A stretch of 64,000 nt of DNA from a virus. This document shows, piece by piece, positions 9,295 to 59,027 of this stretch. The stretch lies in IMG/VR virus record IMGVR_UViG_3300021959_010405, positions 53,430 through 117,429 of that record; one strand, written 5' to 3'. Within the stretch, counting starts at the first letter, position 1, and each line of letters opens with the position of its first letter. The position numbers and the translations under genes are program-made. The notes below the pieces were generated by a model, which was not told the DNA's origin, made no database searches, and saw only the letters and a list, made by a program, of their open reading frames with translations.

Positions 9295-10746
9295 CTAAGG
9301 TTCTTTTATTGTAGAAATATTGAATGGTATACTCTCCTTTCGATATATTTCTAACCTTTTGTTTAAATGTGATATTCCATAATGTAGTTGATCGGCTAGA
9401 TCAATAATAATTAATTTATTTTTACTGTGATGCTTTCTCAATCCTCTACCAATCGATTGTACTAGACGTATAAAAGCCTTGCCCCCGCTTGCAAAAACAA
9501 TCATATGTATATTTTTAATATTAATTCCTGTAGAAAATATAGATGACATTGCAATACAAATAACCCCGTTATTATTCTCCATACTCTTTTTAATTTTCTC
9601 TCTATCGTCAACCTCTACCGAGCCTTGAACAAAATGAACTTCTCTATCTGAAATATTATTAAGAGTATCTAAGAGTATCTCGCCATGAGCTATATGATTA
9701 ACTAGTATTAAAATATTATTTTTAAAATTACTACTTACTTGTTTTATTATTTTGTTACGATATTCACTCTCATATAAAAAATCTAATTCTGCCTTGTATC
9801 TTGCCGTCGATGTAAATTCATCATCCTTAAAATATGTTTTAGGTTTCTTTTTATACTCAATTTTAAGAATTTTAACCTCCGCTGAAGTTAAAAATCCTTC
9901 TTCGCGAAGTTCATTACTACCTTTCTCATAATATACTGGACCTGTCTTTCCGATTATTGACCACCTATCCATCTGCTCCTCTGGTAGGGTACCAGTAAAG
10001 CCATATTTATTATTAGTATATATCTTACTAATTAATTTACCTATTTTGTTCTTATGCTTTACTTTATGAGCTTCATCAATAACTACTAAATCTACATGTT
10101 CTATCCATGAATGATCGTCAAACTGACTTTGAACAATTTGATTACTCGCTATTACAACATTTACATTAGTATCTAATTTATATTGTGAGGTCCATCTGCA
10201 GAAAGTAAATGGTACATTATACTCTTCAAAATCGCTGTATGTCTGCTGTACTAGACCGCGGTCAGGTACTAATAACAAACACCTAAAATCTTTACCTCCC
10301 TTAGTTTTATTAATAATATTATGTATAAGAGTAGCTATTGTTAAGGTTTTACCTCCACCTGTCCCTAAAACACATACCCCCTTACCTCCTTTAAGAGCAT
10401 TTTTTAAAATTTCTTCTTGATAATACCTTAATTCTAGATTATTATCTAAAAAGATGAGTTCATCGCTAAAACCGCAATCTACAATCTCTCTAACTTCGCT
10501 TGTAAAGGAGATCTTACATGTAGGTGCAGATTCTTTTATTGTTTTTATAACATCAGATAAGAGACCTGGCTCGAACTTACCAGCAGGAGTTATAGAGTAT
10601 AATCTTCTGGGGGCAAACTTGGACTGATATGCGGCCGCCTTATTAGGCACACTAAATTTCTCTCTTATTTCGTTTAACAATACGGAATTATCTGTTTTTA
10701 TTAAACAGCGATTATGATTTATTGAGTAGTCAATCTCGACCTGCAT
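9295..10746 (-). CDS. uvsW: UvsW, recombination helicase
   Basis: 483 residues (T4 UvsW is 503), a superfamily 2 helicase that unwinds branched DNA and R-loops and shuts off origin-type replication. An N-terminal DNA-binding domain (1-95) is followed by a Q motif (R-Y-Y-Q110), Walker A G128-T-G-G-G-K-T134, D224-E-A-H227, F-T-G-T-L near 254 and the arginine-finger motif S-I-G-R-G-L-R near 435. It starts one base inside uvsY and is co-transcribed with it. T4 makes UvsW late; here the arrangement suggests an early transcript from the uvsY promoter. Confidence 0.93.
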   Translation of the reverse strand: MQVEIDYSINHNRCLIKTDNSVLLNEIREKFSVPNKAAAYQSKFAPRRLYSITPAGKFEPGLLSDVIKTIKESAPTCKISFTSEVREIVDCGFSDELIFLDNNLELRYYQEEILKNALKGGKGVCVLGTGGGKTLTIATLIHNIINKTKGGKDFRCLLLVPDRGLVQQTYSDFEEYNVPFTFCRWTSQYKLDTNVNVVIASNQIVQSQFDDHSWIEHVDLVVIDEAHKVKHKNKIGKLISKIYTNNKYGFTGTLPEEQMDRWSIIGKTGPVYYEKGSNELREEGFLTSAEVKILKIEYKKKPKTYFKDDEFTSTARYKAELDFLYESEYRNKIIKQVSSNFKNNILILVNHIAHGEILLDTLNNISDREVHFVQGSVEVDDREKIKKSMENNNGVICIAMSSIFSTGINIKNIHMIVFASGGKAFIRLVQSIGRGLRKHHSKNKLIIIDLADQLHYGISHLNKRLEIYRKESIPFNISTIKEP

Positions 10747-11141
10747 TATAACATCTCAAGCTTCATTAGCTCGACAATATTTTTTATATCCCAAACCATA
10801 GAGGTAAGATTTTTTTCAGTTTTTTCTAAAAACTCAATAATTAATTCTAACTCCTTACATTTATTAGTAAGTTCCGTCATTTCGCTACTACCTTTAGCCA
10901 TTTTAAGAGATTCTGGTATACTCAAGCGCGTTACAGATTTTTCTCTAAGTTTTTCAGCGATTTCTCTCTCACGCTGTTGCTTTTCTTTATATATTGAATT
11001 GAGCTCATGCTTATGCCTTATGAGTCTAGCAGTCCAGTAGTGTCTTCTTGCAGGAAGGCGGCGTTGAACCTCGCTCACGTTCATTTCATCTATAGAAAGC
11101 TCTAATTTAAGTTCCTCTATATATTTTTCAAGAAGATCCAT
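10746..11141 (-). CDS. uvsY: UvsY-like recombination mediator
   Basis: 131 residues (T4 UvsY is 137), predicted to load UvsX on gp32-coated single-stranded DNA. The sequence is almost wholly helical and highly charged. A Y-W-T-A-R-L-I-R-H-K segment (35-44) and an R-E-R-E-I-A-E-K-L-R helix (61-70) resemble the DNA-binding part of T4 UvsY. Similarity is modest, but the position directly before uvsW is the T4 order and supports the call. Its promoter (11148-11175) overlaps the start of the divergent plus-strand gene. Confidence 0.8.
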   Translation of the reverse strand: MDLLEKYIEELKLELSIDEMNVSEVQRRLPARRHYWTARLIRHKHELNSIYKEKQQREREIAEKLREKSVTRLSIPESLKMAKGSSEMTELTNKCKELELIIEFLEKTEKNLTSMVWDIKNIVELMKLEML

Positions 11142-11147
11142 CTTATT

Positions 11148-11175
11148 AATATAAATACTAATATGGAGAAATCCA
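11148..11175 (-). promoter_or_regulatory. Early promoter of uvsY-uvsW
   Basis: On the minus strand: -35 TGGATT (11175-11170), 16-bp spacer, -10 TATATT (11153-11148), then 6 bases to the ATG. It covers both the late box and the start codon of the divergent plus gene. Confidence 0.6.
11150..11157 (+). promoter_or_regulatory. Late promoter TATAAATA
   Basis: Perfect T4-type late box, 5 bases before the ATG at 11163. It overlaps the early -10 box of uvsY on the other strand. Confidence 0.75.
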
Positions 11176-11411
11176 ATCTTTATTTTAATACATTTATAAA
11201 AATACTATCTGAGGACTCAATCGCTGGAGATGGTGGCTCATTCGGTGAATTACAACCTACCGCTACTACATTTAGCGGAGATAATTATGCGCCAGGGGAT
11301 GCGCGTAATATATTCGGCGGATTACCTAATAAAATCCAAAGAAGAGCTGGAATTAGTACAAAAAAACGTAAAAAACGTAAAAAAACTAGAAAATCTCGTA
11401 AAAACCGTTGA
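11163..11411 (+). CDS. Small basic-tailed protein resembling the capsid N-arm
   Basis: 82 residues. Residues 1-17 form an amphipathic helix ending I-L-S-E, a likely gp21 cleavage site. After it, residues 18-50 echo the segment of this phage's major capsid protein that follows its own cleavage site: both have G-x-G-G-S-F-G and, about 20-25 residues on, Y-A-(P/S)-G-D-A-R. The last 16 residues are almost all Lys, Arg, Thr or Ser and would bind DNA. It is a late gene, predicted to be an internal head protein. No named family is recognised. Confidence 0.7.
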   Translation: MEKSNLYFNTFIKILSEDSIAGDGGSFGELQPTATTFSGDNYAPGDARNIFGGLPNKIQRRAGISTKKRKKRKKTRKSRKNR

Positions 11412-11480: not shown

Positions 11481-11903
11481 ATGATAAATTTAGGCCATTG
11501 GGTTACAGAATTAGAGATACCAGAAGATCCGTACGGATTTATATACGTTATAACAAATACCGATAATAATCATAAGTATATTGGTAAAAAGCAGTGTAAG
11601 ACCATCCTCAAACGCGCGCCTCTTAAGGGTAAGAAAAGAAAAAGACACGTCGAGAAAGATACTGACTGGAGAACATATACCGGATCGTGCAATAAGCTTA
11701 ATTCTGATATTGAATCGATCGGTAAAGATAAATTTATTTTCGAAATTATTAGATTCTGCAATAATAAATGGGAATTAGCTTATTTCGAGATGAAAGAGCA
11801 GCTAGAAAAAGACGTTCTCATAAGTGATCAGTACTATAACGGTATTATTAATGCTAGAATCGGTAAAATTCCCGACGAAACACGCCGTCTTCTTGAAGAA
11901 TAG
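11481..11903 (+). CDS. GIY-YIG family endonuclease-like protein
   Basis: 140 residues. The N-terminal core has Y18-G-F-I-Y-V-I at 18-24 and K-Y-I-G-K-K at 33-38, the two strands that define the GIY-YIG nuclease fold, then W-R-T-Y-T-G-S near 63. T4 Seg proteins share this fold, but this short form lacks an obvious DNA-binding C-terminal domain, as in many stand-alone phage GIY-YIG proteins. It could be a homing or repair-type nuclease. The catalytic Arg and Glu of the family cannot be placed with confidence. The 69-base gap before it has GATAAA just before the ATG but no clear promoter. Confidence 0.75.
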   Translation: MINLGHWVTELEIPEDPYGFIYVITNTDNNHKYIGKKQCKTILKRAPLKGKKRKRHVEKDTDWRTYTGSCNKLNSDIESIGKDKFIFEIIRFCNNKWELAYFEMKEQLEKDVLISDQYYNGIINARIGKIPDETRRLLEE

Positions 11904-12530: not shown

Positions 12531-12944
12531 ATGAAGAAATTTGATCGTATAGCGCGTACCGCTATTGAGTATTTGACTGAGCAATCTCCAAATGAGGTTC
12601 TCGGCGCTGCAGCACCAGTTGATCCGAATTTAGCTGCAGATCCATCGATGGGAGCCGGGGAGATGGCGCCTCAAGAAGCGCCTCCGGTAGAGGAACCTGA
12701 GCAGGAGGTAGAGACTTTATCACCAGAGGCTGAGGTAGTGCTAGTTAAGTTTATACGTAAAGCACTTTTAATCGATTTATCCTTAGAAGATAAAGCTAAG
12801 TTAATTAATTTAATACCTACTGATAAAGATATCGATCAGACTAATGCTAAATCGATTTTGGAAGCCCTTCAATCAATAATTGGATCGTATTCCACTACAA
12901 AAACAACAGAAGAGGATAAGGATAAATTAAACATACCTGGATAA
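12531..12944 (+). CDS. Putative internal head protein
   Basis: 137 residues. Residues 1-17 form a basic amphipathic helix ending Y-L-T-E, which fits a capsid-targeting sequence cut by gp21. Residues 20-65 are rich in Ala, Pro and Glu and look disordered. Residues 66-115 are predicted helical with a repeated K-A-L-L-I/K-A-K-L-I pattern. The Pro/Glu-rich linker and late promoter fit a prohead core or packaged protein. It ends two bases before the next start, so both are translated together. No family recognised. Confidence 0.65.
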   Translation: MKKFDRIARTAIEYLTEQSPNEVLGAAAPVDPNLAADPSMGAGEMAPQEAPPVEEPEQEVETLSPEAEVVLVKFIRKALLIDLSLEDKAKLINLIPTDKDIDQTNAKSILEALQSIIGSYSTTKTTEEDKDKLNIPG

Positions 12945-14020: not shown

Positions 14021-15298
14021 ATGAGAACATTTAAACAATACTATAAAAATAAAAAACAAAATCTCTATTTAGAATTTTTTGATGCTATAGATGGCGCAGT
14101 TAAGCACATTGATCATTTAGAGGAAAACATTCTTAACAAAGGTAAGCAAGGAGTACATGACGCACTAAATCAAATTGAAGCTTCGATAAAGTACTTCACA
14201 GAAGAATCTGATTATAAAATTAGTGTTAAGTTTGATGGAGCTCCAGCTATAGTTGCAGGGACTGATCCTAGTGGAAGATTCTTTGTAGCCAGTAAGTCCG
14301 CTTTTGCAAAAAATCCAAAAATAAACTATACTGTTGAAGATATTGAGCGAAATCACGGCCACGCTCCAGGTTTGGTAGATAAATTAGTAAAAGCTTTAAA
14401 ATATTTACCTTCTTTAAATATAAAAGGCATCTATCAAATGGATTTTATGTTTGATGATCAACTCAAGCAAATAGAAACCCCACAAACAATAGATGGTGTG
14501 CCCAATGAGAATACATTTATAACATTTACACCGAATACCATTAAGTATGCTGTATCTCCGGATAGTCCGTATGGAGATCAAATACAGAAAGCACAAATAG
14601 GGGTTGCAGTGCATATTGAATATGAGGTGCGTGATGGGATTCTTAAGGTTAAAAAATATACATCAAGTCCGGATGAGTTTTCATCTTCTAATACGGTATT
14701 TTTATTCAACGTTTTAGCGGGTAAGTCTAAACAAGGTGTGAGTAGGTTCACAAAAAGACTTTTAACCGATGTTAAACGTAAGAAAGAGCGTGTATTAAAA
14801 TTATCTAACAATATAAAGTTTAAAGAGCTCGAACCTTATAACGCGTTAATAAAGACGTATATTAATAGTGAAATTAGAAGCGGTAGATTCTTAGATAATA
14901 TTGCAATGTCTACTGATGAATTAGTAAGATATAATGCTGATAGATATCAAAAGCAAATTGATAAGCTTAAATCCGATGCTGGTAAGCAAAGAAAGAAAGA
15001 ACAAATGGATGCAGATATGGGTAAGCTTATGGAGCTTAGATCTTCCGTTAAGGGGGTATTGGAAATTACTAAAATTATAGCAATGTTAAAAAATAATCTC
15101 GTTAAAATATTTAATGAGATAACTCGCAACGATTTGCTTGGAAATTATCTCGATGAGGGAGGCGGTCAATGGCAAACAACCGCGCCAGAAGGTTTCGCTT
15201 TATCGAAGGTAGATGATGAAGGGGCTCAAATAACCAAAATGGTAGATCGTCAAGAATTTAGTGCAGCAAACTTTGGAACTGGAAAACCTGGATCATGA
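14021..15298 (+). CDS. Ligase-like nucleotidyltransferase, DUF6267-like
   Basis: 425 residues. The centre of interest is K70-F-D-G73, inside S-V-K-F-D-G-A-P-A-I-V. This matches motif I (K-x-D-G) of DNA/RNA ligases and capping enzymes, where the Lys takes AMP or GMP. A downstream S-K-S stretch near 91 resembles the loop after motif I in T4-like DUF6267 proteins. No complete OB-fold ligase domain is evident, so the substrate is unknown. The N-terminus ends L-Y-L-E at 15-18, a possible gp21 site. The last codons overlap the next gene by 4 bases, which couples the two nucleotidyltransferases. Confidence 0.65.
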   Translation: MRTFKQYYKNKKQNLYLEFFDAIDGAVKHIDHLEENILNKGKQGVHDALNQIEASIKYFTEESDYKISVKFDGAPAIVAGTDPSGRFFVASKSAFAKNPKINYTVEDIERNHGHAPGLVDKLVKALKYLPSLNIKGIYQMDFMFDDQLKQIETPQTIDGVPNENTFITFTPNTIKYAVSPDSPYGDQIQKAQIGVAVHIEYEVRDGILKVKKYTSSPDEFSSSNTVFLFNVLAGKSKQGVSRFTKRLLTDVKRKKERVLKLSNNIKFKELEPYNALIKTYINSEIRSGRFLDNIAMSTDELVRYNADRYQKQIDKLKSDAGKQRKKEQMDADMGKLMELRSSVKGVLEITKIIAMLKNNLVKIFNEITRNDLLGNYLDEGGGQWQTTAPEGFALSKVDDEGAQITKMVDRQEFSAANFGTGKPGS

Positions 15299-26453: not shown

Positions 26454-27386
26454 GTGAAAAAGTTTAATCAAATATTAAGTTTATACGTCGAGGATAATAT
26501 AGATCTAGTAAAGGTCAGGCTTAAAGTTGATCCGAAGGATAAAAATATTGTTGATTATAAAGACTTTGACGGATACGAAGGGTATATTTTAAAGGAGGGT
26601 GCTTATTATAATGTATTTTTCTTACAAGAAAATCTACCAGTTTTACAAGTTCCCTTTTCTATTATAAGTGTGACGGATATAGAAGATACAAACAAGTTTG
26701 ATACCGTTAAGATGGCCGCTCTTAAACTACTCGATAAAAAAGGGTGTTTAACTGATAGTAAAATTAGAAAGATAGGGATGTGTAATGAGGTTGAATTCTT
26801 TGAACAATACTTAAGAGAAGAAGGCGTTACAGATTCAGAGATAAAAGATTTATATAAAAATAATTTATTCGAAAATGTATTGACGGAGAAGGTAAACTGG
26901 GGTAAGTTGGCTGGTTTAGCAGCTGCAGGAGTGTTCGCTCCTGGTTATGCTGCGGATGTATTAGCTGGGAAAGCTAAAGAAAAGCTCGGAAATGTATTTG
27001 ATCCAAGACAAGATATATTCAGCGATGATAAACATAAAGGTTCAAGCACTAATACCGCCTCCTCTACAAGCGACAGTACCGCATCGATGCAATTTTTACC
27101 AGCCAGGTATAAAAGTCTGCAACCTGATCGAAAGTCATCTGTACTAGTGAATGACCTAGATAAAATAGGCGATGAGTTACAGAGTAAGGGAATACAGAAT
27201 GACCTTGTACTTAAAATCGACAGTAATATTAAGGATAGTATGTTTGGATCATCAGTTAAAATGGTCAAAATAGAGGACTTAATAAATGTTTTAGACAGTC
27301 ACGAACTAGTAGAAGAAATACTAAAGCCATATCAACGCGGTAATACTGGTCAAGTTAAACAATTTTTATTACAAAAGTTTCCTTAA
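26454..27386 (+). CDS. Putative packaged internal protein
   Basis: 310 residues from a GTG; the nearby ATG at 26452 is out of frame and stops at once. Residues 1-13 (M-K-K-F-N...L-Y-V-E) look like a capsid-targeting helix ending at a gp21 site. A hydrophobic Ala/Gly-rich segment (about 146-170) could insert in membrane, followed by a Ser/Thr-rich linker (195-220) and a charged C-terminal domain. Late promoter 5 bases upstream. The membrane-like segment and targeting peptide would fit a protein ejected with DNA. No family recognised. Confidence 0.6.
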   Translation: MKKFNQILSLYVEDNIDLVKVRLKVDPKDKNIVDYKDFDGYEGYILKEGAYYNVFFLQENLPVLQVPFSIISVTDIEDTNKFDTVKMAALKLLDKKGCLTDSKIRKIGMCNEVEFFEQYLREEGVTDSEIKDLYKNNLFENVLTEKVNWGKLAGLAAAGVFAPGYAADVLAGKAKEKLGNVFDPRQDIFSDDKHKGSSTNTASSTSDSTASMQFLPARYKSLQPDRKSSVLVNDLDKIGDELQSKGIQNDLVLKIDSNIKDSMFGSSVKMVKIEDLINVLDSHELVEEILKPYQRGNTGQVKQFLLQKFP

Positions 27387-52855: not shown

Positions 52856-53533
52856 ATGGGATTCCGATTAATTACTGATGAGGCAGCGGCTACATTAGAC
52901 GAGTTCGAATATATATTCGAAGAAAAAGACCGTAATGAACCTAGATCGCTCTATATTCAAGGGCCATATATGCTAGCAGAAGCTGTTAATCGTAATAAGA
53001 GGAAATATCCTATCCACGAGATGAGAAAAGAAGTGGATAGATATACAAATGATATGATCAATAAGCAGAGAGCTATGGGAGAGCTTAATCACCCCACCTC
53101 TGCGGACGTTGATTTAGAACGCGCATGCCATTTAGTAGAATATTTAAAAGAGGAGAAAGAGGGGGACAGATATGTATTTACTGGTAGATCAAAAGTACTT
53201 ACTACCCCTTGTGGTAAAATTGTTCACTCATTAGTTAATGATGGAGTGTCTGTTGGAATGTCTTCAAGAGCTTTAGGTCAATTATCAGAGAAGAATTCCT
53301 TTAACGAAGTTAGCAACATGAGATTGGTCGCTATTGATTGTGTCGCAGATCCGTCATTTAGTGAAGCATTCGTAAATGGTATATTAGAATCTAAAGAATG
53401 GGTATTGAAGGATGATGGTCATTTCGAAGAAAACTACGAAGAGTTTGAAAAATCTTTACATAATCTACCAAAAGGCTGTAAAAAAGATTTTATTACAGAA
53501 CAAATTATCAATTTTATTAAAAATATTAGGTAG
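52856..53533 (+). CDS. 21: gp21 prohead protease
   Basis: 225 residues (T4 gp21 is 212). Serine protease of the phage prohead family: G-E-L-N-H79-P near 75-80 gives the catalytic His, G-V-S-V-G-M-S136-S137-R the Ser, and D-C-V-A-D-P-S-F near 161 a supporting Asp region. It sits inside the prohead, cuts scaffold and head proteins after Glu in (L/I)-x-E contexts, and then itself. In this phage many late proteins end their first 8-21 residues with such a site, so it probably has an unusually large substrate set. Confidence 0.92.
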   Translation: MGFRLITDEAAATLDEFEYIFEEKDRNEPRSLYIQGPYMLAEAVNRNKRKYPIHEMRKEVDRYTNDMINKQRAMGELNHPTSADVDLERACHLVEYLKEEKEGDRYVFTGRSKVLTTPCGKIVHSLVNDGVSVGMSSRALGQLSEKNSFNEVSNMRLVAIDCVADPSFSEAFVNGILESKEWVLKDDGHFEENYEEFEKSLHNLPKGCKKDFITEQIINFIKNIR

Positions 53534-54672: not shown

Positions 54673-56169
54673 ATGAAAAATCCGAATATTGATGGAAATA
54701 CAGCTAAAAGACTTCTTGAGAAGTGGGCACCAGTTTTGGACTACTCCTCTAAGAACATAGCTCCAATTGAAGATGAGCGTACCCGCGTTAATACCGCGAT
54801 TATGCTTGAGAACCAAGAGGACTGGTGTCAGGACCCTGAAGGTGGTCTCCTTATGGAGAGCTCCTACGGCGGAAATGGTGGTTCTTTTGGATCTGGATCC
54901 TCTGTGGGTGGAGTTTACTCCCCTCCTGGAACTGTTACTAGCAACGACGGATATGCGTCCGGAGATGCTCGTCTTCCAAAAATCCTTATTCCGATGATTC
55001 GTCGTACTTTCCCTGAATTGATAAGTAATGAGATCGTTGGAGTTCAGCCAATGAGTGGTCCTGTTGGACTTGCTTTCGCTTTGCGTTACAAGTACAACAC
55101 GGAAGGTCTCGGTACTGGCGGTGTTGACGGTGGGGCTACTGGTCCTGGCGGAACACACAACACGTACCTTGGATCGCCACCTAATGATGAATTAGGTTAC
55201 CAGCATCTCGATACCCGCTTTACTGGTACTTCTTCCAGTCAGCTCTCTGGCGATGGAGATTATTTTAACTTCGCAGCTCAGGATCAAGGTGTAGCCGAGA
55301 TCCTTAAGAACTGGGAAATTAATAACAACATCCCTCAGGTTGACATTTCTTTTGAGAAGACCGCTGTTGAGGCAGGTACGAGACGTTTAGGTGCTCGTTG
55401 GTCTGTTGAGCTTGAGCAAGACCTTAAGAACATGAATGGTATCGACGTTGATGCTGAAATCACGAACGCTATGGCGTACGAGATCCAGGCAGAAATCGAT
55501 CGTGAAATGATTGTTCGTATGATCCAGACAGCACTCAACGCCGGATACGGCGCTGGTTTCTCTGTTTGGTCACCTGCATCTGCAGATGGTCGCTGGCTCG
55601 TTGAGCGCAACAGAGACTTCTACCAGAGACTTATTATCGAAGCTAACCGTATTGCTGTCCGCAACCGTCGTGGCGCTGCAAACTTTATTGTTTGTACTCC
55701 TCGTGTTGCAGCTATTCTCGAAATGCTTCCGGAATTCCAGTGGGTTCCGGTTCAAGGCAACGTGAATACACAGCCTGTCGGTATCGCTAAGGTTGGTAAT
55801 CTCGGTGGTCGTTTCAACGTTTATCGTGACACTCGTACGGAAGTCCAAAACTCTGGCGTATATGGATCGCAAGGTTACTCTGATGGTAGTCTTGGTGGTT
55901 CAACTTATACTCGCACTGATGGTGTTGAGTACGCCCTCCTTGGTTACAAGGGGCCTGAGTTCTACGACACTGGTATTATATACTGCCCGTACATTCCTGT
56001 CATGGTACAGCGTACGATTGGTCCTCAGGACTTCGCTCCTCGTGTTGGTCTTCTCACCCGTTACGGCGTGGTTGACAACATCTTTGGTGCGAATCTCTAT
56101 TACCACATCATTATTGTTCAGGGACTGGGTGCGGCGTTTACGCCGGCTTCACAGTCTGTTTACTTCTAA
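54673..56169 (+). CDS. 23: gp23 major capsid protein
   Basis: 498 residues (T4 gp23 is 521). The first 62 residues end L-L-M-E62, the gp21 cleavage point (T4 cuts after residue 65), so the mature protein starts at S63-S-Y-G-G. From there the T4-like track follows: G-G-S-F-G near 70, G-D-A-R near 98, R-R-T-F-P-E-L-I near 113, G-V-Q-P-M-S-G-P near 125 and A-L-R-Y near 137. Codon use is richer in C-ending codons than its neighbours, as expected for a highly expressed gene. AGGAAAG upstream can act as Shine-Dalgarno; no late box stands directly before it, so it may depend on transcripts from further upstream. Confidence 0.96.
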   Translation: MKNPNIDGNTAKRLLEKWAPVLDYSSKNIAPIEDERTRVNTAIMLENQEDWCQDPEGGLLMESSYGGNGGSFGSGSSVGGVYSPPGTVTSNDGYASGDARLPKILIPMIRRTFPELISNEIVGVQPMSGPVGLAFALRYKYNTEGLGTGGVDGGATGPGGTHNTYLGSPPNDELGYQHLDTRFTGTSSSQLSGDGDYFNFAAQDQGVAEILKNWEINNNIPQVDISFEKTAVEAGTRRLGARWSVELEQDLKNMNGIDVDAEITNAMAYEIQAEIDREMIVRMIQTALNAGYGAGFSVWSPASADGRWLVERNRDFYQRLIIEANRIAVRNRRGAANFIVCTPRVAAILEMLPEFQWVPVQGNVNTQPVGIAKVGNLGGRFNVYRDTRTEVQNSGVYGSQGYSDGSLGGSTYTRTDGVEYALLGYKGPEFYDTGIIYCPYIPVMVQRTIGPQDFAPRVGLLTRYGVVDNIFGANLYYHIIIVQGLGAAFTPASQSVYF

Positions 56170-56196: not shown

Positions 56197-56225
56197 CCTC
56201 GGAGAGAAATCTCCGAGGTTTCTTT
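56197..56225. terminator. Terminator after the capsid gene
   Basis: Perfect 9-bp stem CCTCGGAGA/TCTCCGAGG (56197-56205, 56210-56218) with a GAAA tetraloop, followed by T-rich TTTCTTT on the plus strand. It closes the head block against the convergent repeat genes. Confidence 0.85.
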
Positions 56226-56895
56226 ATGTAAATATTCTGCCTCTTACTCCCGGTAACATTCCTTTAAGTTCTTCCGCAGTATATTTTTTACTTATCGGGG
56301 TATTAGTTAGATCTAAATCACCACCTACTTGTAGATTATCTGGCAGTGATGTTATTTGCGTATTACGTAAATCTAAACTACTGCCTACTTCTAGATTATC
56401 TGGTAGTGAGGCTATTGGTGCGCTAGATAAATATAAACCACCACCTACTTTAAGATTATCTGGGAGTGATGTTATTTGCGTATTACGTAAATCTAAAAAA
56501 CCGCTTACTTTAAGATTATTTGATAGTGATGTTATTGGTGTGTTAGATAGATCTAAATAACCGTTTACTTCTAGATTATCTGGTAATGATGTTATTTGTG
56601 TATTAGGTAAATCTAAACTACCACCTACTTGTAGATTATCTGGTAGTGAGGCTATTGGTGTGCTAGATAAATATAAACCGCGACCCACTTTAAGATTATT
56701 TGGTAGTGATGTTATTGGTGTATTAGTTAGAATTAAATCACCTCGCGACCCATTATCGATATAATCTTGTATCTTTTTATACGCCAATCTCTCTAAATGA
56801 GCTTGCTTATCCTCTCTAGAGTACTTTGGTTTATGATTAGTCAAATCGATAGATTCTCTAAGGATTTGTTTGTATGCTTCAAATATAGGGTCCAT
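56224..56895 (-). CDS. Leucine-rich-repeat protein, copy 3 (7 units)
   Basis: 223 residues. Residues 1-14 (M-D-P-I-F-E-A-Y-K-Q-I-L-R-E) look like a capsid-targeting peptide with a gp21 site at L-R-E. Residues 15-55 are a conserved helical cap. Seven 20-residue units follow, each of the form I-T-S-L-P-D-N-L-x-V-G-G-x-L-x-L. This short LRR type is close to that of IpaH/YopM-like bacterial effectors. A C-terminal cap starts S-K-K-Y-T-A-E-E-L-K. Two sister genes lie behind. No enzyme domain is attached. Confidence 0.8.
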   Translation of the reverse strand: MDPIFEAYKQILRESIDLTNHKPKYSREDKQAHLERLAYKKIQDYIDNGSRGDLILTNTPITSLPNNLKVGRGLYLSSTPIASLPDNLQVGGSLDLPNTQITSLPDNLEVNGYLDLSNTPITSLSNNLKVSGFLDLRNTQITSLPDNLKVGGGLYLSSAPIASLPDNLEVGSSLDLRNTQITSLPDNLQVGGDLDLTNTPISKKYTAEELKGMLPGVRGRIFT

Positions 56896-56909
56896 TTAAT
56901 TTTTAGGAT

Positions 56910-56917
56910 TATTTATG
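56910..56917 (-). promoter_or_regulatory. Late promoter CATAAATA between repeat genes
   Basis: Late box on the minus strand, overlapping the stop codon of the upstream repeat gene and 14 bases before the ATG at 56895. The same arrangement recurs upstream of 57527 (25 bases before that ATG). Confidence 0.45.
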
Positions 56918-57527
56918 TATATATTTTGCCTTCTACTCCTGGGAGCATTCTTTTAAGTTCTTCCGCAGTATATTTTTTACTTATTGGGGTATTACGTAAA
57001 TATAAATGACCACCTACTTCTAGATTATCTGGTAGGGATGTTATTTGGGTATTACGTAAATATAAACCACCACCTACTTCTAGATTATCTGGTAGGGATG
57101 TTATTTTAGTACCACCTAAATTTAAATCACCACCTACTTCTAGATTATCTGGCAGTGATGCTATTTGTGTATTATCTAAATATAAATCACCACCTACTTC
57201 TAGATTATCTGGCAGTGATGTTATTTGCGTATTACCTAAATATAAACCACCACCTACTTTAAGATTATCTGGTAGGGATGTTATTTGTGTATTACGTAAA
57301 TTTAAACCACCACCTACTTCTAGATTATCTGGTAGGGATGTTATTTGCGTATAAGATAAATCTAAATTGCCTTGAGATCCACTATCGATATAATCTTGTA
57401 CCTTTTTATACGCCAATCTCGCTAAATGAGCTTGTTTATCCTCTTTAGTGTATTTTGGTTTATGATTAGTCAAATCGATAGTCTGTTCACTTAGGATTTG
57501 TTTGTATGCTTCGAATATAGGGTCCAT
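56913..57527 (-). CDS. Leucine-rich-repeat protein, copy 2 (6 units)
   Basis: 204 residues. Same plan as its neighbours: targeting-like N-terminus ending I-L-S-E14, helical cap with H-K-P-K-Y-T-K-E-D near 21-29, six 20-residue LRR units and the S-K-K-Y-T-A-E-E-L-K end cap. It is one unit shorter than copy 3. Units within this gene are very alike at DNA level (60-base period), so gain or loss of units by recombination is expected. Confidence 0.8.
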   Translation of the reverse strand: MDPIFEAYKQILSEQTIDLTNHKPKYTKEDKQAHLARLAYKKVQDYIDSGSQGNLDLSYTQITSLPDNLEVGGGLNLRNTQITSLPDNLKVGGGLYLGNTQITSLPDNLEVGGDLYLDNTQIASLPDNLEVGGDLNLGGTKITSLPDNLEVGGGLYLRNTQITSLPDNLEVGGHLYLRNTPISKKYTAEELKRMLPGVEGKIYT

Positions 57528-57555
57528 ATGTTTTATTAAATCATATATTGATTAT

Positions 57556-58167
57556 TTATGTATATATTTTGCCTTCTACCCCTGGGAGCATTCTTTTAAG
57601 TTTTTTCGCAGTATATTTTTTACTTATTGGTGTTTTCTCTAAATTTAAATATTCACCTACTTTTAAATTATCTGGTAGGGATGTTATTTGCGTATTATGT
57701 AAATCTAAAATACCGTCTACTTTAAGATTATCTGGCAGTGATGTTATTTGCGTATTACCTAAATATAAACCACCACCTACTTCTAGATTATCTGGTAGGG
57801 ATGTTATTTGCGTATAAGATAAATATAAATCACCACCTACTTCTAGATTATCTGGTAGGGATGTTATTTTAGTACCACCTAAATTTAAATATCCACCTAC
57901 TTTAAGATTATCTGGTAGGGATGTTATTTGCGTATTATGTAAATCTAAAATACCGTCTACTTTAAGATTATCTGGTAGGGATGTTATTTGTGTATTAGCT
58001 AGTTCTAAATTGCCTTGAGATCCACTATCGATATAATCTTGTACCTTTTTATACGCTAATTTATTTAAATGAGCTTGCTTATCCTCTTTAGTGTATTTTG
58101 GTTTATGGTTAGTTAAATCGATAGATTCTCTAAGAATTTGTTTGTATACTTCAAATATAGGGTCCAT
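57556..58167 (-). CDS. Leucine-rich-repeat protein, copy 1 (6 units)
   Basis: 203 residues, first of the three in transcription order. N-terminus ends I-L-R-E14. Six LRR units; the first and fifth carry the same K-V-D-G-I-L-D-L-H variant, which suggests unit duplication. The end cap reads T-A-K-K-L-K instead of T-A-E-E-L-K. Its start is 17 bases after the stop of the WCT-motif gene, so both are probably transcribed from the late box at 59033-59040. Confidence 0.8.
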   Translation of the reverse strand: MDPIFEVYKQILRESIDLTNHKPKYTKEDKQAHLNKLAYKKVQDYIDSGSQGNLELANTQITSLPDNLKVDGILDLHNTQITSLPDNLKVGGYLNLGGTKITSLPDNLEVGGDLYLSYTQITSLPDNLEVGGGLYLGNTQITSLPDNLKVDGILDLHNTQITSLPDNLKVGEYLNLEKTPISKKYTAKKLKRMLPGVEGKIYT

Positions 58168-58184: not shown

Positions 58185-59027
58185 TTAATTAATACCAACT
58201 ATTTTCATCCACGTATCTAACATATCACGACCCATCTGACTATCAGTACCGTCATATGCGTCATATGTATAAAAATTACCTTCACTGTCTTTTCTTGTTA
58301 TTATCTTTTCCCCGACTTTGTCAATTCTGGATGAATCGTTAATCGGAATTCTTGCCAGCGCAACCACATAATGCTTCTCATCAAACCCACTACGCTTAAG
58401 CTGATTTTTTAAACTATCGCTCTTTATCAATGTATAATAGAAATCAACATTATTATTGTAGTAATAATCATCCCAATGTGTTGAAGTACTATACGTAGTA
58501 CACCATGCAGAATCTTTTTTACCACCTTTGCATTCTCTAAAAGCAAAACCTCCCTGTTCTACAGGGGTAAGGCCTAGCTTTCTAGAAGCTTCATGTGTAT
58601 AAGGTATAACTATACGTATATCGTCATTGTCAACAATAACGTCAAAATCACCAGACAATTCGCTTTTCGATGCAGTCGTTTCAGTTTTATTAAGCTCATT
58701 AACAATATTATACAGATCCTTAAAACTTTTGTAAGATTGAATATTTGACTTTTGATCTTTTATCAATCCTTTACGAACAAAAGCGTCAAATTCTTCTATT
58801 GTATTGCGGAGATTATCGATATCTTGTTCTTCTCCTCTGACATATACTCGAGCTAACCACCCAGTATATTTTTTTTGTTCGGTTGGGTCAATACCTACAA
58901 TAGTATCAAACTCTTGTTTATCTAACTTTCCTTGCTGTAGAAGTTGTTTAGCTTCTCTCCTACTCTCAGTAATAACGTTATAAAATAAATTTAGTATATT
59001 AACAGAATCTTCATTAAGAACTTCCAT
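58185..59027 (-). CDS. WCT-motif phage protein, possibly packaged
   Basis: 280 residues. The N-terminus ends N-V-I-T-E21, a likely gp21 site. Residues 50-115 are helical. The C-terminal domain has I-P-Y-T-H-E-A-S-R-K-L-G near 144-155, then D-S-A-W-C-T-T near 174-180 and Y-Y-Y-N-N-N-V-D-F-Y near 190. I recall the pattern H/W-E-A-S...W-C-T from many marine and enteric phage proteins of unknown role. A late box 5 bases upstream gives a leaderless-type start. Confidence 0.65.
   Translation of the reverse strand: MEVLNEDSVNILNLFYNVITESRREAKQLLQQGKLDKQEFDTIVGIDPTEQKKYTGWLARVYVRGEEQDIDNLRNTIEEFDAFVRKGLIKDQKSNIQSYKSFKDLYNIVNELNKTETTASKSELSGDFDVIVDNDDIRIVIPYTHEASRKLGLTPVEQGGFAFRECKGGKKDSAWCTTYSTSTHWDDYYYNNNVDFYYTLIKSDSLKNQLKRSGFDEKHYVVALARIPINDSSRIDKVGEKIITRKDSEGNFYTYDAYDGTDSQMGRDMLDTWMKIVGIN

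Follow-up and report, generated by a model that had tools for sequence, protein, structure and literature searches.

The window analysed here, a stretch of viral DNA of 64,000 nt, contains a small gene (11163..11411, + strand) that lies between a uvsY-like gene (10746..11141, - strand; phrog_231, E = 8e-8) and a SegE-like GIY-YIG gene (11481..11903, + strand; PF19835, E = 4e-30), which by synteny are its conserved upstream and downstream neighbours. The gene starts with ATG and encodes a protein of 82 aa, MEKSNLYFNTFIKILSE17/DSIAGDGGSFGELQPTATTFSGDNYAPGDARNIFGGLPNKIQRRAGISTKKRKKRKKTRKSRKNR (slashes mark predicted or candidate protease sites), in which a helical leader ending in L-S-E17 is followed by a stretch that copies the N-terminus of the mature major capsid protein (MCP) and then by a Lys/Arg tail.

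The leader (residues 1-17, MEKSNLYFNTFIKILSE; 11163..11213, + strand) ends in L-x-E, and a helix spanning residues 4-20 was the only structure predicted by AF2 for the protein (mean pLDDT 61). Leu15 and Glu17 are invariant in 12 relatives, which supports, as a motif, the cleavage at E17 predicted in an earlier sequence-only reading. Leaders that end in the prohead-protease motif (L/I-x-E) are characteristic of T4-type internal head proteins; leader and L-x-E together resemble a T4 capsid-targeting sequence (CTS) with its gp21 site, and cleavage is predicted. The arm mimic that follows (residues 18-48, DSIAGDGGSFGELQPTATTFSGDNYAPGDAR; 11214..11306, + strand) is the counterpart of the T4 gp23* N-fist. 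It reads G22-D-G-G-S-F-G28 and then Y42-A-P-G-D-A-R48, and SGDNYAPGDAR is invariant in 12 relatives. Residues 49-64 (NIFGGLPNKIQRRAGI; 11307..11354, + strand) are a remnant of the MCP N-arm segment LPKILIPMIRRTF, of which relatives hold clearer forms. The tail (residues 65-82 and the stop codon; 11355..11411, + strand) has no predicted fold, and 13 of the 16 final residues are Lys or Arg, in agreement with the 16-residue basic tail described earlier.

The protein matched no PHROGs family up to E = 1, and no convincing match, the IP and Alt families included, was obtained among 50,697 phage records. At 82 aa, with a fold predicted by AF2 only in the leader helix, it has no HK97-fold body of the kind that defines the gp23/phrog_138 family.

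A T4-type late promoter octamer, TATAAATA (11150..11157, + strand), is followed by CTAAT and then by the ATG of the small gene. The promoter (TATAAATACTNNT) abuts the start codon, and is exact or slightly altered in many relatives. The octamer is found within 30 nt upstream of 10 of the 62 window genes, compared with 0.35 expected, and lies 5-14 nt before, or overlaps, the start codon in 10 window genes, including those at 11163 and 52856. The latter encodes a gp21-like prohead protease (52856..53533, + strand; phrog_207, E = 1.7e-51), a candidate for the processing enzyme, and its gap between octamer and ATG is also 5 nt. The T4 +1 would be expected at or next to the start codon, and the small gene is therefore possibly transcribed as a leaderless mRNA; given the same +1 position, several late mRNAs of the window would be leaderless. 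Late expression, as for a T4-type internal head protein, is read here from the promoter sequence alone.

The window also contains a portal gene, and a gene in the scaffold position between the protease and the MCP. Short amphipathic leaders ending in L/V/I-x-E (e.g., MDPIFEAYKQILSE/Q) were observed in further window proteins, encoded at 12531-12944, 14021-15298, 26454-27386, 56224-58167 and 58185-59027, so an entire complement of CTS-bearing internal proteins may be packaged by the phage. The region at 56224-58167 (- strand) comprises three tandem, closely similar leucine-rich-repeat (LRR) genes directly downstream of the MCP gene and on the opposite strand.

Correspondence with the major capsid protein

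The MCP of the window is gp23-like, a homologue of T4 gp23 (54673..56169, + strand; phrog_138, E = 2.1e-83), and the copied arm corresponds to its residues 63-100 (54859-54972, + strand). Around E62 it reads ...LLME62/SSYGGNGGSFG...NDGYASGDARLPKILIPMIRRTF, the sequence following L-M-E62 being SSYGGNGGSFGSGSSVGGVYSPPGTVTSNDGYASGDARLPKILIPMIRRTF; in the alignment with the small protein, a 7-residue insertion separates the GGSFG and GDAR motifs. A single-sequence search of the phage's own 117-kb record returned one other match to the small protein, the MCP N-terminus (E = 0.02, 54% identity), which the family profile recovered at E = 1.6e-6; an arm profile matched the small gene at E = 6.9e-17. 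The local score against the MCP was 70, compared with 31.9 +/- 5.0 (maximum 55) for 400 segment shuffles, and the MCP ranked best of 205 window frames by local score with the small protein segment. Chance similarity was rejected on the basis of the E-values, the shuffle scores and the unique genome match; the claim that the small protein copies the capsid N-arm around its cleavage site holds letter for letter, well above shuffles. In its mature N-terminal arm, the small protein is homologous to the gp23/phrog_138 family.

The small protein keeps the common form SGDNYAPGDAR, from which the MCP of the same window has drifted away (SNDGYASGDAR). The similarity extends beyond GDAR (KIQRR in the small protein, MIRR in the MCP), and the copied segment reaches into the MCP sequence LPK(I/V)LIPMIRRTFPEL, given also as LPK(I/V)L...MIRR(T)F. 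In proteins encoded at the same slot in relatives, the counterpart of this sequence is usually interrupted by, or lies ahead of, Lys/Arg: one (G089) reads RIPKVLGAKQIKKKSKKKGKRKTIIPIQRRTF, i.e., PK(V/I)L-[basic insert]-IPIQRRTF, and the N-arm takes the forms IYRRNFPETITG in G100 and TPMIRRTL in L063. Homology that runs through the N-arm with its basic insert suggests that the module probably arose from the 5' part of an MCP gene in which basic residues lay within the N-arm or behind it. At matched identical residues in 10 pairs, 86 codons were identical compared with about 99 expected; codon identity is at chance, which favours selection acting on the protein over a recent exchange of DNA. On these grounds, neither a recent duplication nor recent gene conversion is favoured.

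Related genes in uncultured and cultured phages

Searches of viral contigs found such a gene at about 50 loci in related uncultured phages. Its slot has a fixed order, in which gp46, gp47, sigma55, uvsW and uvsY lie on one strand, while the other carries the module gene, followed at nearly all loci by a GIY-YIG gene; the GIY-YIG neighbours in the cultured phages examined were not adjacent to uvsY. Two MCP-positive genomes, G101 and G092, had appeared to lack the mimic, the profile having matched only the MCP, but this was overturned by divergent ORFs in the slot that contain leader, arm and basic part. As judged from its sequence, the slot gene is under purifying selection, with dN/dS of about 0.03-0.2 between close pairs. 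Whatever the architecture, the module lies directly C-terminal to an [LIVFM]-x-E site. The compact form, comprised of leader, module and tail, is 70-85 aa in length, and most slot proteins carry no cargo.

The cargo-fused relatives differ in the placement of the cargo: about 100 residues lie ahead of the module in L068-L070 (182 aa), a cargo region is C-terminal to it in L063-L067 (365 aa), and in L223/L324-L357 (about 200 aa) the cargo follows the module and the site preceding the arm tends to be weaker. At 34 loci (L324-L357), the arm is followed by a basic linker, a second L-x-E and a domain with ADP-ribosyltransferase-like motifs, and the second L-x-E marks the precise junction of basic part and enzyme-like domain (KKKLNE/S, LKE/S, LNE/D). 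The ADP-ribosyltransferase-like character of this cargo is putative and unproven, coming from motifs and sub-threshold Pfam matches, and AF2 returned a pLDDT of 45 (132 aa, 17 close sequences). In L351 this domain type occurs twice (Pfam Exotox-A_cataly, E = 0.0065, below the cut-off), and a DUF5661-similar stretch precedes the module in L063-L067 (E = 3.8e-5, just below the cut-off).

Twelve records were searched with a profile of the MCP arms from 11 cultured T4-like phages. Second arm copies were found in ACG-2014d, Syn19 and P-HM2, and ACG-2014f and P-SSM2 encode phrog_3286-type relatives with a basic insert; the profile found no second copy in T4, CC2, phiM9, LIMEstone1, Melnitz-3, S-CAM4 or BUCT-ZZ01. 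The absence from the first five of these implies that T4-type heads do not depend on the mimic. In the cyanophages, the mimic gene lies just before gp61, a locus other than the uvsY/GIY-YIG slot; the ACG-2014d protein has relatives in 288 phage records, and the arm was checked in 13 genomes. The cyanophage arms share little sequence with that of the window, yet they often match their own MCP. The ACG-2014d mimic reads SPTMSAGTGGFSG..ATGPVAGFDPVL and its MCP APTMAAGTGGFSG..ATGPVAGFDPVL, TNVGPINTQTT..GFDPIL is present in both proteins of P-HM2, and AGTGGF-G and TTGYTG dialects occur among the matched pairs. The protein records for the matched pairs of ACG-2014d and P-HM2 are AIX16281.1 and ADO99949.1, respectively.

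Cyanophage proteins of phrog_696 (T4-GC 426) and phrog_4187 resemble the slot proteins in having an N-terminal MCP-arm copy, a basic stretch, a further domain and a fixed slot, but differ in lying upstream of gp61 and in having no long leader, only 2-7 residues preceding the arm. The phrog_3286 proteins (64 aa; 61 aa in ACG-2014f) likewise have a basic insert in the N-arm (DPPVDL-KKKKKK-VLSTFRRSLPNQ, compared with DPVLISLIRRSMPNL in the MCP), although the arm part ahead of DP is much diverged. About 50 slot loci, 34 enzyme-fused loci and 13 cyanophages share a layout in which the arm copy lies at the (mature) N-terminus, or close to it, and a basic stretch comes next.

The arms of mimic and MCP co-vary. 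Among 15 same-record pairs from the window's lineage (two of which were found by synteny only), own-pair similarity was 0.368 compared with 0.255 +/- 0.022 for shuffled pairings (p = 5e-6); the effect persisted when the four genomes most alike were left out (p = 0.008) and in a partial Mantel test with the MCP body as the control variable (r = 0.32, p = 0.026). Own-pair similarity also exceeded that of shuffled pairings for 13 cultured cyanophage pairs (p = 2e-4). Part of this co-variation is shared ancestry, not all of which is removed by the permutations. For the mimics of the window, G016, G099 and G113, other arms are closer than that of the own MCP (rank 12, 39, 69 and 54 of 92, respectively), and the mimics of ACG-2014g, P-SSM7, S-P4 and Syn19 are unmatched to their own MCP. 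The co-variation that the sequence-only reading had put forward as a check is present in both sets of pairs but fails in several genomes, and the independent divergence named as evidence against it occurs in part.

Probable docking by arm mimicry and competing explanations

Arm-mimic proteins are a real and conserved class in T4-like phages, apparently one that was undescribed before; no description of arm mimicry was found in the literature searched, in which subscription journals were thinly covered. T4 internal proteins and Alt have only a CTS of about 10 aa in common. The mimic is like T4 IPI, IPII, IPIII and gpAlt in its leader helix running to L-x-E, its late gene, its small basic product or enzyme-like cargo and its presumed packaging in the prohead core, but unlike them it has an arm copy, none having been found in T4. 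It is like the T4 gp23* N-fist and N-arm in that the copied segment starts immediately behind the protease site and continues as far as the RR motif, but a Lys/Arg stretch or another domain takes the place of the HK97-fold body. As a packaged head protein it would be akin to the T4 internal proteins, but a code for docking on the shell could be something new in kind.

On balance, the small protein probably belongs inside the head and attaches to the shell by mimicking the mature N-terminal arm of the MCP, with the basic part serving DNA or cargo. It would be made late, from the promoter seen in the sequence, and the helical leader would bring it into the assembling prohead core. A gp21-like protease would then cut after L-S-E17, as it would the MCP after L-M-E62, as motif and homology suggest. 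The freed N-terminus, a copy of the MCP N-fist and N-arm, would occupy arm-binding grooves between capsid subunits, these being either empty sites around the pentons or portal or a minority of the ordinary sites. The mimic arm would probably become ordered at expansion, along with the MCP arms, and the basic part would stay inside, neutralising or holding DNA; in the fused relatives it would link the cargo domain to the shell. Selection to fit one groove would keep both arms alike: the co-variation is observed, the groove binding putative.

In T4, the N-fist (gp23* residues 66-91, followed by the N-arm) contacts four subunits; it is disordered in the prohead and moves to the outer surface at expansion, and it is disordered in the five gp23* subunits that face the portal (PMC9958956, PMC7136217). 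As the T4 arm ends on the outer surface, the inner capsid wall, where the mimic's sites had first been placed, is a doubtful location (PMC7136217). The regular N-fist sites may all be filled by the MCP itself, which counts against docking, as do the genomes whose mimic is unmatched to the own MCP and the lack of a second arm copy in T4 and four other phages.

The CTS-like leader, and the second L-x-E that fused relatives keep between basic part and enzyme-like domain, would also suit an arm that is a packaging signal only. The arm-like segment would co-assemble with the MCP before the prohead expands, and the protease would then free the payload, a basic peptide or an enzyme, for later ejection like that of the T4 IPs and Alt, with no lasting docking. 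In T4, the CTS alone is enough for packaging (PMC7697877). However, if so short a sequence suffices, an arm copy of 30-45 residues is superfluous; moreover, most slot proteins have no cargo, and the cyanophage mimics retain the arm without a long leader. This explanation is unlikely.

Less probable still is that the mimic is specific to arm sites that stand empty for want of an MCP neighbour (at the pentons or portal), where it would stabilise or mark the vertices, the basic tail being secondary. T4 N-fists are formed by gp23 only, not gp24, and the five that face the portal are disordered. Cyanomyoviruses have no g24, and an analogue has been proposed (PMC2984593). No sequence feature points to vertices, however, and the strongly basic tail would be left unexplained.

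An L-x-E site followed by similar residues in both proteins had also suggested a competitive substrate or timer for the gp21-like prohead protease. Such a decoy fits poorly and is very improbable, as conservation runs 30-45 residues beyond the site through LPK...RR and the cyanophage mimics, with so few residues before the arm, have no propeptide. Equally hard to credit is a relic of an old partial MCP-gene duplication, kept by occasional gene conversion and with no arm-based function: the homology does span the 5' part of an MCP-like gene, but the low dN/dS, the chance-level codon identity and the recurrence of the design at a different locus in cyanophages all argue against it.

Docking by arm mimicry can be extended, tentatively and at somewhat less than even confidence, to a general code, in which the MCP arm is a modular docking tag and non-capsid proteins with co-evolving copies plug into head grooves, anchoring basic DNA-binding peptides or enzyme-like cargo, at different loci in two phage groups. 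If correct, docking would show how internal proteins of T4-like heads attach to the shell itself, and would provide a peptide tag of natural origin, matched to the genome, with which proteins could be loaded into phage heads. What the N-fist groove accepts could be tested directly on the natural pair of arm and mimic present in each genome. It would also give a function to a conserved, unexplained cyanophage protein now labelled 'major head protein'.

That label is carried by phrog_696 proteins of 180-300 aa in PHROGs and RefSeq (e.g., NC_048015 157602-158300; NC_048102 121124-121678), and is apparently a mis-annotation propagated from the N-terminal arm copy alone. Although virion proteomics exist for some cyanophages, and virion data for S-SM1, Syn9, S-PM2 and S-SCSM1, the family of the cyanophage mimics, T4-GC 426, carries the annotation 'hypothetical', which weighs against docking.
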